Shown here one piece after another: positions 8,795-32,037 of a DNA stretch of 32,621 bases. The translations under genes were made by a program, and so were the position numbers. The stretch's first letter is position 1; each line of letters starts with the position of its first letter. This DNA comes from a virus: IMG/VR virus record IMGVR_UViG_3300020159_003811, positions 1-32,621 of that record. One strand, 5' to 3'. The notes beneath the pieces are model-generated. The model ran no database searches and had not been told where the DNA came from. It worked only from the letters and a program-made list of their open reading frames with translations.

Positions 8795-8847
8795 GACATA
8801 TTTATACGATAAGCATCTACTTATCATAAAACAAAGGATAAAAGCAA

Positions 8848-27178: not shown

Positions 27179-27203
27179 ACTAGTTATTGTAGTGTGCTAT
27201 ACT
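27179..27203 (+). promoter_or_regulatory. ACTAGTTAT palindrome and TATACT -10-like box
   Basis: A 12-bp perfect palindrome ATAACTAGTTAT (27176-27187) holds the recurring ACTAGTTAT core. TATACT at 27198-27203 could be the -10 of a promoter starting near 27210. Unlike the other copies, the palindrome here lies upstream of the -10, where an activator would bind. Confidence 0.55.
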
Positions 27204-27209
27204 GATCCT

Positions 27210-27446
27210 GTTTTACATTCGGACGGAACTTCCTCCCATAGTGGTTCCCAGAAGTAGTTGTTGTAGGCAACGAAAACCGAATCTCTAAAATAGATCTGAA
27301 ATATCCTACTCTTATTTTTTTTGTATGCTTGATTGCATATGGGTAGGGCTGGAAAGAGAACTGCATGGCAGTTCGGCTGGCATTGCCGCCAGCCTCAAAG
27401 GCAGTTATAAAGCAGTGTCTGGCAATAAGATACTGGGAGAAAAGAA
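27210..27446 (+). ncRNA. Long multi-hairpin 5' leader (or small RNA) upstream of the gene at 27447
   Basis: About 237 untranslated bases that fold into successive elements. First, a three-way-junction-like fold: outer stem ATTCGG (27217-27222) with CCGAAT (27277-27282), enclosing GGAAC/GTTCC (27225-27229, 27244-27248) and GTTG/CAAC (27257-27260, 27268-27271). A T8 run follows at 27315-27322. Then four hairpins: TATGC/GCATA (27324-27339), GAACTGC/GCAGTTC (27358-27374), GGCTGGC/GCCAGCC (27375-27394) and CAGTGTC/GATACTG (27413-27435), the last directly at the ribosome site. It matches no riboswitch that I know. It could be a regulatory leader, or two RNAs split at the T8 run. Confidence 0.55.
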
Positions 27447-27785
27447 ATGGCAAATAAAATACCAAGTGCTGAAAGAAGAGATGCAGTAAGAGAAAAGAAA
27501 AAGTTTGATACTGCCAAAGAAAATATAGAGGCAAGTAAGTTACAAAATGAGCTGGATAAATATCTAATCGTCCCAGCAAATGAAGCAATCCTGCTAGGAC
27601 ACAATCCAATCAGTCAATATAGTAACTGGGCAGTTTTTGATAAGTATAATAAGTTGGTTGGTTGGTTTCTGAATCGTGAAGGTATTCAGAAAACATTAGA
27701 GGCTAAAATCATTAGGGAAAGTAAAGTTTCTAATAAGAAGTGTGTGGCAAAGAAGTCTCTTGACAAGCCTCAGAAGATCCTGTAA
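27447..27785 (+). CDS. Unknown basic/helical protein (112 aa)
   Basis: Not recognised. The N-terminal third is charged and helical (ERRDAVREKKKFDTAKENIEASKLQNELDKYL), the middle has NPISQYSNWAVFDKYNKLVGWF, probably a small beta region, and the C-terminus is basic (KKCVAKKSLDKPQKIL). The start follows GGGAGAAAAG. Translation may be tuned by the hairpin 27413-27435 that abuts the ribosome site. The next gene's promoter overlaps its stop codon, as in the early cassette, so this region is probably also expressed early. Confidence 0.72.
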   Translation: MANKIPSAERRDAVREKKKFDTAKENIEASKLQNELDKYLIVPANEAILLGHNPISQYSNWAVFDKYNKLVGWFLNREGIQKTLEAKIIRESKVSNKKCVAKKSLDKPQKIL

Positions 27786-27811
27786 GATAGCTAGCACAGT
27801 CAAAGTGACTG
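27760..27811 (+). promoter_or_regulatory. Sigma-70 promoter plus small leader hairpin for the gene at 27825
   Basis: TTGACA at 27760-27765, 17-bp spacer, TAAGAT at 27783-27788; the stop codon of the previous gene lies within the -10. The leader has CAGTC (27797-27801), loop AAAGT, GACTG (27807-27811) before ATGGAGA. Confidence 0.75.
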
Positions 27812-27824
27812 ATGGAGAATATAA

Positions 27825-28085
27825 ATGGCAACTGATATCTGGAAAATCAAAATCAAAATGTTAGATCGTGAAGACATGGCTGCTGCCCAAGTAAGTTGTG
27901 ATGCTAAATATGCTGTTGTTGAGGCATCTGATACTGGGACTAATGAAATCATTGCGGTTGGGAATAGTTTAGAACAAGTCCTCCCAGCATATAGCAAAGC
28001 TCGCAGCGATCTTTATGTAGCTCGTCGCCAAGATAAAGTTCGTAAGACTCCACCACAAAATGCAAATCGTTATGCAAGATACTAA
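27825..28085 (+). CDS. Unknown small early-type protein (86 aa)
   Basis: Not recognised with confidence. It has a mixed alpha/beta pattern: IWKIKIKML strand, AAAQVSCDAKYAVVEASD, then NEIIAVGNSLEQVLPAYSKA and a basic tail (ARRQDKVRKTPPQNANRYARY). The strand-turn-strand followed by a helix faintly recalls DUF5678-like small proteins, but I would not assign it. It has its own promoter, an ATGGAGA ribosome site and a following promoter for the candidate small RNA. Confidence 0.7.
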   Translation: MATDIWKIKIKMLDREDMAAAQVSCDAKYAVVEASDTGTNEIIAVGNSLEQVLPAYSKARSDLYVARRQDKVRKTPPQNANRYARY

Positions 28086-28092
28086 AAAATAG

Positions 28093-28121
28093 TTGACAAA
28101 GATTTTTGTTTGGCGTATACT
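28093..28121 (+). promoter_or_regulatory. Sigma-70 promoter driving the candidate small RNA
   Basis: TTGACA at 28093-28098, a 17-bp spacer and TATACT at 28116-28121. The predicted start, near 28128, falls almost exactly at the base of the first RNA stem (28130), and there is no ribosome site and open frame before the terminator. Confidence 0.88.
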
Positions 28122-28127
28122 TATGGA

Positions 28128-28210
28128 ATAAGGTTCTTCTCTGCAAGGTACGCCATACCTCATCTCCGAGAATCTTTTATGACTCCTGCCTACTCAGGAG
28201 TCATTTTTTT
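28128..28210 (+). ncRNA. Candidate phage small RNA (about 83 nt)
   Basis: A consensus promoter and a strong terminator enclose about 80 non-coding bases. The 5' part forms a 9-bp stem AAGGTTCTT (28130-28138) with GAGAATCTT (28168-28176), two G-U pairs included, enclosing a hairpin AGGTA (28146-28150), loop CGCCA, TACCT (28156-28160). The 3' part is the terminator hairpin and T7. Size and layout are those of a Hfq-type or decoy small RNA. Target unknown. The alternative is a terminated leader of the RHH-like gene at 28264. Confidence 0.68.
28179..28210 (+). terminator. Terminator of the candidate small RNA
   Basis: A 10-bp perfect stem ATGACTCCTG (28179-28188) with CAGGAGTCAT (28195-28204), loop CCTACT, then a T-run to 28210. 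Confidence 0.93.
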
Positions 28211-28238
28211 ATTCCTTACGATAAATAGGTATCTACTT

Positions 28239-28250
28239 ATAGTATACTAT
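28239..28250 (+). promoter_or_regulatory. Palindrome ATAGTATACTAT before the RHH-like gene, possible operator
   Basis: A perfect 12-bp palindrome that contains a -10-like TATACT (28243-28248) and ends five bases before the ribosome site. It resembles the TAGTTATACTAT part of the ACTAGTTATACTA element. As a ribbon-helix-helix-like protein is encoded directly downstream, an autoregulatory operator is a reasonable inference. Confidence 0.5.
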
Positions 28251-28263
28251 CCACAGGAGAAAA

Positions 28264-28497
28264 ATGATGGGCAGAAAGAAACTTCCAGAAAACTACTTCG
28301 ATAAAACCGTCAGTTGGAACATACGCATAGATCGTAAGATTGGTGAAGACTTTGTCGAGTTATATCAAGAACGTAAGGCAAGATATGCTGACGAAGGCAA
28401 GAAGTATTATGTAAAGAATGTATTTGAGAGACTATTGCAAATCTATATTGATGAACAACGTGCGCTATTAGAAAAAGAGGGTGCAACAAGTGAGTAA
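28264..28497 (+). CDS. Ribbon-helix-helix-like regulator (77 aa)
   Basis: The pattern is that of Arc/CopG-type DNA-binding proteins: a strand VSWNIRID (16-23), helix A RKIGEDFVELYQERKAR (24-40), a loop, then helix B VKNVFERLLQIYIDEQRALL. It would act as a dimer with the strand in the DNA major groove. The first Met (28264) or the second (28267) could be used; the second is better spaced from AGGAG (28255-28259). The loop between helices is longer than in Arc, so the match is moderate. It heads an overlapping operon that ends in endolysin and terminase genes, so it may control late expression. Confidence 0.6.
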   Translation: MMGRKKLPENYFDKTVSWNIRIDRKIGEDFVELYQERKARYADEGKKYYVKNVFERLLQIYIDEQRALLEKEGATSE

Positions 28498-28654
28498 TGT
28501 AGAAGCTGAAATAGAGTTCAAATCCAGCATAAACAGAATGAAAGATGAGCTGCATAGGTTACAGGCAGATCTAAAAATGATACGTAAAGATTTAGCAGAG
28601 CAACAAGTATTACTAAACAAACTCCAAGGATACTGGGAAGGAATCGGAAAATGA
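28490..28654 (+). CDS. Small coiled-coil protein with GTG start (54 aa)
   Basis: A GTG at 28490 begins inside the last codons of the RHH-like gene, with GAGG at 28477-28480 upstream, and the stop overlaps the next ATG (ATGA at 28651-28654). The protein is nearly all heptad-patterned helix: AEIEFKSSINRMKDELHRLQ, then DLKMIRKDLAEQQVLLNKLQ. Overlaps at both ends make it a convincing gene despite its size. It may be a partner of a neighbour; function unknown. Confidence 0.7.
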   Translation: MSNVEAEIEFKSSINRMKDELHRLQADLKMIRKDLAEQQVLLNKLQGYWEGIGK

Positions 28655-29058
28655 GCAAAAGCGAAAACGAACTACAAGGTTATGTTGATGAAGCAAAAGA
28701 AGAAATCGAACAAAGTGGTATGACATGTGAAGATGTTTGGAATCTAGTTGATCCCTATGTTGAAGTAGAGGGTGATGAGGATTATGAAAAGATTCGGGCT
28801 GACTATATTGAAAGCACACGCATCTATAAAGAAAGCGAAGATAATGTCCTACGCCTAAAAGGCGAAATGGAAGTCCTAGAAGGCGATATGAATAGCTGCT
28901 TGCCCGGAGGCATCAGTCAAGAAATGTTTACAAAACATTATGAAGTTGTACGTGATTTACATTATGCCTTTGGACACTACACAGCTATCTTACAACGTCG
29001 TGCTGCCAGCGGCGTAGTATTCCTAGAACAAATCCGCAGAGTACAAACACTAAACTAA
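28651..29058 (+). CDS. Unknown acidic helical protein (135 aa)
   Basis: Not recognised. Very acidic N-terminal half (VDEAKEEIEQSG, VEVEGDEDYEKI), helical throughout, with a coiled-coil-like middle (RIYKESEDNVLRLKGEMEVLEGDM). No membrane segment. It overlaps the previous gene by four bases and the next by one (TAATG), so it belongs to the same operon as the GNAT and endolysin genes. Confidence 0.72.
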   Translation: MSKSENELQGYVDEAKEEIEQSGMTCEDVWNLVDPYVEVEGDEDYEKIRADYIESTRIYKESEDNVLRLKGEMEVLEGDMNSCLPGGISQEMFTKHYEVVRDLHYAFGHYTAILQRRAASGVVFLEQIRRVQTLN

Positions 29059-29495
29059 TGTTACCAATAAGCATACGCCCATATAATAAGATCGGTGATG
29101 AAGCTTTTCTTTTTAGTACATGGATGAAAAGTTATAGTGATAGCGTGCGTGGATGTCCACTACCGATCTATCATATTGGTCAGCGTAATCGTATGATACG
29201 TTTGCTGAACCGACACGATACGCTTGTATACATTGCATGCGACAGGGAAACCCCAGAACTTATTTATGGATATATCGTAGTTGGTATGCCGAACTGCTTG
29301 CATTGGATTTATGTAAAAAGCGATTATCGAAATGCAGGAGTAGGAAAACAACTACTAAATCTACTAAACTGGCAAGCACCTGTATTCTATACACACAAAG
29401 CCAACGCTATCTGGATAGAACAAAAAATAAAAGGCAATAGCCAATACGATACGCTTATCTACAATCCGTATATTTTAGAAGAGGAAAGCCAATGA
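29058..29495 (+). CDS. GNAT-family N-acetyltransferase (145 aa)
   Basis: The acetyl-CoA binding motif A is visible: strand LHWIYVKSDYRNAGVGKQLL (about 81-100), with R-N-A-G-V-G as the Q/RxxGxG/A pyrophosphate loop and the following helix. A preceding strand YGYIVVGMP fits the GNAT core. Length is normal. It overlaps the portal-side neighbour by one base and the endolysin by four (ATGA). GNAT genes beside endolysins occur in other podoviruses; the substrate is unknown and could be a host or phage protein, or cell-wall related. Confidence 0.87.
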   Translation: MLPISIRPYNKIGDEAFLFSTWMKSYSDSVRGCPLPIYHIGQRNRMIRLLNRHDTLVYIACDRETPELIYGYIVVGMPNCLHWIYVKSDYRNAGVGKQLLNLLNWQAPVFYTHKANAIWIEQKIKGNSQYDTLIYNPYILEEESQ

Positions 29496-30139
29496 GCAAA
29501 GAACTAATAAGTGCCGAGCAACTACAAAAGATATTCCCAAACGCAAAAGGGGAGAAATGCAAGCTATATGCAGATGCCTTCAATAAAGTATTGCCTCAAT
29601 ACGCTATTGATACACCAAAGCGTATTGCTGTATTCCTTGGACAGATAGGTGTTGAGAGCGGCGAACTAAAATATGATCGTGAACTTCCCAGCACATACAA
29701 TAAAGTTGATCCAAAAGATAAAGGCGAATGCACAGGCAGTAGATATTGCAATCGTAAAGCGAGCCTTGGTAACTATGTTTGTGTTGCAAACAATAACAGC
29801 AATAAGCACACAGCCGATTGCGATGGACCCAAATATATTGGTCGTGGGATATTACAGATTACTGGTCGCGCTAACTACGCACGTTATGGACCAAAGGTTG
29901 GTGCTGATCTAATAAAGAATCCTGAGCTTGCCTGTGATCCATATATAGCAACCAAAATAGCCTGTGAGTATTTCCGTGATCGTAATATCAATAGTCAAAG
30001 CGATGCTTGGTCAGCAGTAAGTCTCGCAAAGTGTACAGAACTTGTAAACGGAACAGCAAAACTGCATCATGCTGAAAGAGTCAAATACGCAGAGCGAGCA
30101 AGAAAGATATTAGAGAATACGGAGAATGTCAATGCCTAG
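29492..30139 (+). CDS. GH19 chitinase-like endolysin (215 aa)
   Basis: A glycoside hydrolase family 19 lysozyme that cleaves peptidoglycan at lysis. Key features: FLGQIGVESGELKYDRELPS (48-67) with the probable catalytic Glu55 and second acid near Glu64, and YIGRGILQITGRANYARYG (115-133), the family's substrate-binding signature. No signal peptide, so it needs a holin. Between these, residues 71-112 are longer than usual for phage GH19 proteins and carry Cys80, Cys86, Cys97 and Cys110, perhaps disulfide- or metal-stabilised. No separate wall-binding domain. Overlaps both neighbours. Confidence 0.93.
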   Translation: MSKELISAEQLQKIFPNAKGEKCKLYADAFNKVLPQYAIDTPKRIAVFLGQIGVESGELKYDRELPSTYNKVDPKDKGECTGSRYCNRKASLGNYVCVANNNSNKHTADCDGPKYIGRGILQITGRANYARYGPKVGADLIKNPELACDPYIATKIACEYFRDRNINSQSDAWSAVSLAKCTELVNGTAKLHHAERVKYAERARKILENTENVNA

Positions 30140-30368
30140 AATGAAGAAAGACGAAAGCCCCCACACAATAACAGAATGCGTACTAGATTTCCAACTGCCT
30201 CCACCTATTTACAGCTCGGAACTAACAACGCTTGCAGATCGCCAACACCGAACTTGCAAACTCGTAAAGAGCATCGTATATGACGAAGGGCGCGTAATAA
30301 TAACAGCACTAGAAGGAAATAACTATATTGTACCAATGTACAAAGTAAGATATATGCGAGAAGAATAA
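30132..30368 (+). CDS. Small unknown protein between endolysin and small terminase (78 aa)
   Basis: ATG at 30132 is preferred to that at 30126 because GGAG (30121-30124) then has normal spacing. The C-terminal half looks like a small beta barrel (KLVKSIVYDEGRVIITALEG then NNYIVPMYKVRYM), the pattern of a KOW/SH3-like or phage translation-coupled small protein; I do not recognise it. It overlaps the endolysin by eight bases and the terminase gene by one (TAATG). Confidence 0.7.
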   Translation: MPRMKKDESPHTITECVLDFQLPPPIYSSELTTLADRQHRTCKLVKSIVYDEGRVIITALEGNNYIVPMYKVRYMREE

Positions 30369-30928
30369 TGAGTAATAAAAGCATAGAAGACGATCCAGAA
30401 TATAAAGCAGCAAAGGAAAGTCATAAGCAGTTTATTACACATGTACTAAATGGTAAGAATAATACCGAAGCATATGCAGCAGCATACCCTAACGCAAGTT
30501 ATGCTGTATGTGGAAGCAAAGGAGCGGTACTAAAAAAGAAATACGAACCATTGCTGAATCGTTACTTACCTCTTACGCCAGAAATGATAAATAAAATAAG
30601 TGATGAGACAATAGGTAATCTAACCCTTATGGCATTTGCAGATGTAAGTGAAATGTTTGATAAACACGGAAAACCACTTCCAGTAAAAAAAATGCCAAAA
30701 GCTATACGTATGGGTATCACAGAGGTAGAAGTAAGAAATAATAAAGTATCTTACAAGATGGGTGGTAAGCTGAAAGCTTTGGAGATACTGGCAAAGGTTG
30801 CAAGACTAACTGAAACGTCCCAAGAAATCAACGTAACCATTATGAGTGAAGAGGAAAAAGAAAATCGCATAAGGGAAATATTAGTCCAAGCCATAGCCAG
30901 AGACGATAGTTCAGACGACGACCAATAG
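30368..30928 (+). CDS. terS: Terminase small subunit (186 aa)
   Basis: Recognises the packaging site and loads the large subunit. The N-terminal helix-turn-helix region KNNTEAYAAAYPNASYAVC (about 28-46) followed by SKGAVLKKKYEP has the Terminase_2-type pattern, and the middle (TLMAFADVSEMFDKHGKPLP, about 80-99) with GGKLKALEILAKVARLTE (about 133-150) is the usual oligomerisation-side pattern. The C-terminus is acidic (DDSSDDDQ). It is the last gene before a repeat-containing intergenic region, where the packaging site may lie. On the circle it is about 4 kb upstream of the large subunit. Confidence 0.86.
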   Translation: MSNKSIEDDPEYKAAKESHKQFITHVLNGKNNTEAYAAAYPNASYAVCGSKGAVLKKKYEPLLNRYLPLTPEMINKISDETIGNLTLMAFADVSEMFDKHGKPLPVKKMPKAIRMGITEVEVRNNKVSYKMGGKLKALEILAKVARLTETSQEINVTIMSEEEKENRIREILVQAIARDDSSDDDQ

Positions 30929-30935
30929 AGCCAAT

Positions 30936-30983
30936 ACAGCCCCTATAACTGCCAAGCACAGCCCCATAACTGCCAAGCACAGC
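30936..30983 (+). repeat. Two tandem 21-22 bp direct repeats plus partial third, candidate pac site or origin
   Basis: The unit is ACAGCCCC (30936-30943 and 30958-30965) followed, after an extra T in the first copy, by ATAACTGCCAAGC (30945-30957 and 30966-30978). A third copy begins ACAGC (30979-30983) and then diverges. The repeats lie eight bases after the small terminase stop and just before an AT-rich stretch (31010-31080), so they could be iterons for packaging or replication initiation. Confidence 0.85.
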
Positions 30984-31114
30984 ACTGCACACTGCGGAGC
31001 AAAACATAAAAATATCGTAAATAAGCAGGTAGTTTTTTATTATATCATACGGAAAATGCGTAGTCAAGCGTAAAATAAGGGGTTTTATCCTGTACATAGA
31101 GTAAAAAAAGGCTA
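30984..31114 (+). other. AT-rich non-coding region after the repeats
   Basis: No supported gene. It contains a T-rich run (31032-31041) that could end the terminase operon, AT-rich sequence that would melt easily and a weak TAAAA/TTTTA inverted repeat near 31072-31088. Together with the repeats it is the least gene-dense part of the genome except the leader at 27.2 kb. Confidence 0.5.
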
Positions 31115-31143
31115 TTGACACGCGATTTTAGGCGTGGTATAAT
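31115..31143 (+). promoter_or_regulatory. Perfect consensus sigma-70 promoter of the early cassette
   Basis: TTGACA at 31115-31120, a 17-bp spacer and TATAAT at 31138-31143: full consensus. This is probably the strongest promoter in the genome and the first early one. It is followed at once by a terminator-like hairpin. Confidence 0.95.
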
Positions 31144-31157
31144 GTGTTTAGAAAGTT

Positions 31158-31188
31158 GGGGAGTGGCTAAATGCCCTCCCCTTTTATT
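31158..31188 (+). terminator. Terminator-like attenuator in the leader of the gene at 31205
   Basis: GGGGAG (31158-31163), bulged T, GGC (31165-31167), loop TAAAT, GCC (31173-31175), CTCCCC (31176-31181), then TTTTATTAT. It begins about eight bases after the predicted transcription start and ends before the ribosome site, so it would stop most transcripts unless relieved. Confidence 0.75.
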
Positions 31189-31204
31189 ATGGAGAAAATA
31201 AATA

Positions 31205-31955: not shown

Positions 31956-31984
31956 TTGACAAGAGGGACATCATCCTGTAAGGT
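31956..31984 (+). promoter_or_regulatory. Sigma-70-like promoter for the gene at 32038
   Basis: TTGACA at 31956-31961, 17-bp spacer, weak TAAGGT at 31979-31984. Its predicted start (about 31991) is only seven bases before a complete terminator. Confidence 0.65.
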
Positions 31985-31997
31985 ACGTATACAACTT

Positions 31998-32023
31998 GGG
32001 AGCTGGCAACAGCTCCCTTTTTT
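31998..32023 (+). terminator. Complete intrinsic terminator between promoter and start codon (attenuator)
   Basis: Perfect stem GGGAGCTG (31998-32005) and CAGCTCCC (32010-32017), GCAA tetraloop, T6 at 32018-32023, then ATGGAGATAAACAA and the start codon at 32038. Initiation from 31956 would give a roughly 32-nt RNA unless the terminator is passed. It mirrors 1136-1161. Confidence 0.9.
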
Positions 32024-32037
32024 ATGGAGATAAACAA

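Follow-up and report, generated by a model that had tools for sequence, protein, structure and literature searches.

Phage-encoded small RNAs are by now an established kind of RNA. A 2025 review lists numerous small RNAs of phage origin and another 38 for which no function has been described (PMC12197685), so that the initial annotation of the locus described here overstated the matter in calling such RNAs rare. Trans-acting, Hfq-dependent representatives include PreS of lambda (LPR1, ~88 nt, host dnaN) and VpdS of VP882 (~50 nt); further, the lambda pR' leader RNA ('6S') has been reported among the Hfq-dependent phage RNAs, and the lambda OOP RNA (pO-tO) is antisense to cII (PMC12197685). The Hfq-binding module comprises a U-rich stretch before the terminator hairpin, which is then followed by seven or more T (PMC5558911).

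The candidate at 28093-28210 can be compared with each of these systems. Like PreS and VpdS, its predicted product is short, phage-encoded and non-coding, with a comparable size, and its T7 tail and the U-rich stretch before its terminator resemble the Hfq module; unlike them, it shows no sequence relation to either RNA and is a prediction from sequence. With lambda pR'-tR' it shares a strong promoter, an intrinsic terminator soon after and a position upstream of lysis and packaging genes. However, the lambda pR'-tR' leader RNA is 194 nt long as compared to ~83 nt for the candidate, no Q gene was recognised in this phage, and the late genes here carry a separate element behind the terminator. 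Lambda OOP, with a size of ~77 nt, is alike in its dedicated promoter and terminator and in its length, but it acts as a cis-antisense RNA, whereas the candidate has no recognised gene on the opposite strand and its complementarity to phage genes is at chance level. It is plausible that the candidate adds one more member, without sequence relatives, to the phage-encoded small RNAs.

The phage genome and its promoter set

The window (the whole stretch of DNA analysed, 32,621 nucleotides) is a circular phage genome, in which a 99-bp end repeat reduces the circle to 32,522 bp. The + strand carries every recognised gene of the phage, including the following:

2374, + strand: terminase large subunit
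4145, + strand: portal
7470, + strand: major head protein
29492, + strand: endolysin
30368, + strand: terminase small subunit

Replication, integrase and polymerase genes were not recognised in this seemingly complete circle, for which a subset of ORFs was searched, many of them without family. Another IMG/VR contig (3300020160_001868) shows 100% identity over the stretches compared, the small-RNA locus included. Terminase relatives at 68-70% lie on contigs too short to reach the small-RNA locus, and more distant ones in MAGs whose labels name assorted aquatic bacteria; a search for a cultured close relative of the lineage found none. Judged by its relatives, the phage apparently comes from freshwater or a lake.

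The locus opens with a promoter whose TTGACA box (28093-28098) and TATACT box (28116-28121) are separated by a spacer of 17 nt:

28093-28121, + strand: sigma-70-type promoter TTGACA-17-TATACT, agreeing with the consensus at 11 of 12 positions

An exact TTGACA followed by an exact 17-nt spacer occurs at nine sites of the genome (111, 469, 1181, 27760, 28093, 31115, 31571, 31956 and 32280). A joint matrix built from these nine promoters scores them at 17.5-22.7 bits, while the next-best position reaches 11.9 bits. A matrix built without 28093 nevertheless places it 9th of 65,044 positions, after only the eight training sites. Each of the eight other promoters has an ATG with a Shine-Dalgarno-like site 27-55 nt downstream, and most of their leaders contain a small 5'-proximal hairpin. 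The 28093 promoter is the exception in the set, with the next ATG at 136 nt and a strong terminator in between. That it alone leads to a terminator instead of a nearby ATG is the best argument for its product being an RNA and not a message.

The pairing of promoter and terminator at 28093-28210 is beyond chance. A promoter matching at least 10 of 12 positions with a terminator 40-150 nt on was found once in the phage, compared with a mean of 0.013 per shuffled genome (300 dinucleotide shuffles of the phage genome), and the same pairing at 11/12 did not occur in any of the 300 shuffles. Other phage and contig DNA (1.02 Mb) contained 190 promoters of 10/12 or better, of which 7 were paired with a terminator in this way, all of them at 10/12. 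The layout is that of a stand-alone small RNA, with its own promoter, its own terminator and no ORF.

The predicted RNA and its fold

Promoter spacing, terminator and fold together delimit the predicted RNA and its parts:

28128-28210, + strand: predicted small RNA, ~83 nt
28130-28176, + strand: 5' domain, consisting of basal stem, internal loop and inner hairpin
28139-28145, + strand: internal-loop strand UCUCUGC, high unpaired probability, candidate pairing seed
28161-28167, + strand: internal-loop strand CAUCUCC, anti-Shine-Dalgarno-like, high unpaired probability, candidate pairing seed
28179-28210, + strand: intrinsic terminator with a 10-bp stem, a 6-nt loop and T7, and UCUUUUAU just before it

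The basal stem (28130-28138/28168-28176) has 9 bp, one G-U among them, the inner hairpin (28146-28150/28156-28160) has 5 bp and a loop of 5 nt, and the internal loop of the 5' domain is symmetric (7+7 nt). The terminator arms lie at 28179-28188 and 28195-28204, and the T run spans 28204-28210. What the initial annotation had described is borne out, namely the near-consensus promoter, the 83 non-coding bases with their 9-bp basal stem and inner hairpin, and the 10-bp terminator stem with T7, of which the first T pairs in the stem and closes it. Only its placement of the start at the first stem base needs a small correction, as the expected start is at ~28128, two bases ahead of the stem.

The RNA as a whole folds at -26.5 kcal/mol (z -5.8), a value owed mostly to the terminator (z -5.1). 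By itself, the 5' domain gives a z of -2.3 to -2.6, and 13% of the 50-nt windows on the phage + strand match it in stability, so that its fold is ordinary. It forms only if the RNA starts at or after ~28118 and is lost when the start lies at or before 28110, as with read-through from upstream; this dependence on the RNA's own start favours a small-RNA gene. No credible ORF was found inside the predicted RNA. Rfam returned no match to it at gathering or permissive thresholds, a sub-threshold match to SIB_RNA was discarded as chance level (E 7.7), and a tRNA/tmRNA search gave no match.

All IMG/VR matches to the small-RNA locus belong to one contig and are 100% identical, and therefore offer no sequence changes for stem covariation. 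Diverged homologues of the locus were found neither in IMG/VR scans with four neighbouring proteins nor in those with the terminase small subunit or the terminator pattern. Similarly, phage and plasmid collections searched at the nucleotide level gave no match to the locus, and protein searches of phages gave none with either of the two neighbour proteins as query.

Proposed action and alternative readings

The pairing statistics, the promoter set, the terminator and the absence of an ORF indicate that the locus very probably makes a short terminated RNA of ~80 nt. To this extent the original suggestion is partly supported; control of host or phage mRNAs by the RNA would be a further step. Pairing with phage gene start regions is no stronger than that of RNAs with a shuffled 5' domain (best z -0.6). 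The longest complement of the RNA in the phage is 10 nt, which is typical of shuffles. Antisense action on the phage mRNAs was rejected on both measures, which are at chance, and host mRNAs would be the likely targets if the RNA pairs in trans.

We tentatively prefer, at a little short of an even chance, to read 28093-28210 as a discrete phage small-RNA gene that would be transcribed early and whose product would be bound by a chaperone and pair with host mRNAs in trans. Host RNA polymerase would start at ~28128 from a promoter of the phage's own set and stop at the intrinsic terminator (28204), releasing an RNA of ~80 nt; the same terminator would also close the unit of the upstream gene at 27825-28085. 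Like the products of the other TTGACA-driven units, this RNA would presumably be made on phage entry. Its predicted 3' end resembles the Hfq-binding module, with the layout AAUCUUUUAU-hairpin-U7 in which the first U is paired in the stem, and the U-rich end may hold an Hfq-type chaperone. The loop strands UCUCUGC and CAUCUCC could then base-pair in trans with host mRNAs, most likely with a translation block as the result. The CAUCUCC strand complements GGAGAUG, a Shine-Dalgarno-like sequence. If the RNA is made, it adds a small-RNA gene to a lineage of small phages, apparently from freshwater, in which the early region is otherwise built from units of one promoter and one small gene, and the locus would be a test case of whether such phages redirect the host by RNA besides small proteins.

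A different reading, possible but on balance rather unlikely, takes the RNA as the terminated leader of an operon at 28264-30928 (77-aa protein, GNAT, endolysin and terminase small subunit) that is served by promoter 28093. The terminator at 28204 would stop most transcripts, and a later antiterminator or partial read-through would let polymerase pass, as in lambda pR'-tR'; the short RNA would be a by-product, possibly with a second job. The features that bear on this reading are:

27825-28085, + strand: upstream 86-aa gene behind promoter 27760, no family, single-sequence model with pLDDT 59
28264-28497, + strand: downstream 77-aa gene, no family, helical model with pLDDT 72
28217-28240, + strand: post-terminator element TACGATAA-N6-ATCTACTTAT, before gene 28264
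8805-8824: second copy of the element, TACGATAA-N2-ATCTACTTAT, after terminator 8785 and before gene 8848

The 77-aa gene heads a group with GNAT (29058), endolysin (29492) and terminase small subunit (30368). Lysis and packaging functions are found among the downstream genes, as expected of such an operon, and these genes have no obvious TTGACA promoter of their own. Since the + strand from 28122 to 31114 has no promoter of at least 10/12, 28093 is their nearest entry. At promoters 31115 and 31956, too, a hairpin with a T-rich run precedes the gene. The relative G022 has a promoter ~400 nt upstream of its GNAT-terminase genes, which fits a leader, but no terminator stands between that promoter and the genes. 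Further, a leader at 28093 would measure 136 nt as compared to 27-55 nt in the other eight units, and pairing of an antiterminator with the terminator arms was not found (duplexes of -4.5 and -5.8 kcal/mol, p 0.63 and 0.71). Riboswitch-like attenuation was rejected, there being no alternative antiterminator fold. A Q-like or antiterminator protein was not recognised among the proteins searched, many of which are without family.

The leader reading also has to accommodate the element that lies between the terminator and the gene. Two copies of it were found where shuffles gave an expectation of 0, both stop exactly 24 nt short of the next ATG, and each can fold into a small hairpin whose 3' arm is CTACTTAT. 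With two copies at hand, the element may act as a promoter of late genes, in processing or as a hairpin in the leader. Because the element also occurs after terminator 8785, without such a promoter before it, it suggests that transcripts of the genes downstream of the small RNA start, or are processed, at a signal of their own. As lambda pR' RNA is itself reported to be Hfq-dependent, the small-RNA and leader readings are not mutually exclusive. A leader at this site would point to antitermination control outside lambdoid phages.

It is unlikely, and more so than a leader, that the locus is punctuation only, with a terminator that ends unit 27760-28085, a promoter without functional product and a short RNA as by-product. 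The terminator follows the 86-aa gene at 94 nt from its stop codon; the unexceptional stability of the 5' domain and the lack of a phage target above chance agree with punctuation as well. However, punctuation needs no promoter as good as one ranked 9th of 65,044 ahead of the terminator, and promoter-terminator pairs of this quality are rare.

We consider improbable a combination in which one RNA has two jobs, acting early as a trans-acting small RNA while its terminator later gates the lysis/packaging operon and the TACGATAA..ATCTACTTAT signal behind terminators takes the place of a known Q system. A very small protein gene, starting at ATG 28179 and encoding a hydrophobic ORF of 41 aa (28179-28304), is highly improbable, for although its leader of 51 nt would have a length usual in the other eight units (27-55 nt), its Shine-Dalgarno pairing is -3.0 kcal/mol versus -6.4 to -9.1 at the other nine starts, its start codon lies inside the terminator stem and its GAGA inside the basal stem, and it overlaps gene 28264 and has no family match.

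Other features of the region

The structure models of both neighbour proteins were uninformative, and that of the 77-aa protein had no PDB match. Around the -10 box of promoter 28093, an inverted repeat (TTTGGCGTA/TACGCCATA) was unconvincing, as five such pairs lie within 1.3 kb, and an operator common to the -10 region and a palindrome at 28241 was dropped with its motif count at chance level.

One small gene lies behind each of the eight other TTGACA promoters, and all of these promoters are located outside the structural gene block. At two of them, 31115 (31115-31190) and 31956 (31956-32025), the promoter runs directly into a GC-rich hairpin and then a T-rich run ahead of the gene, and these leaders are possibly attenuators. 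The terminator at 31998-32026 is 86% like the sequence at 1136-1164.

Ahead of gene 27447 lies a long non-coding gap (27180-27446) with several hairpins, a T8 run and a -10-like site of the extended type (TGCTATACT). The stretch 27209-27325 was considered as a second structured RNA and rejected, as it folds no better than shuffles (z +0.28); over 27209-27446 the fold is weakly better (z -2.0). Finally, the GNAT-like acetyltransferase gene (29058-29495) is conserved in many distant relatives (11 among the sequences compared), where it lies upstream of the gene for the terminase large subunit.
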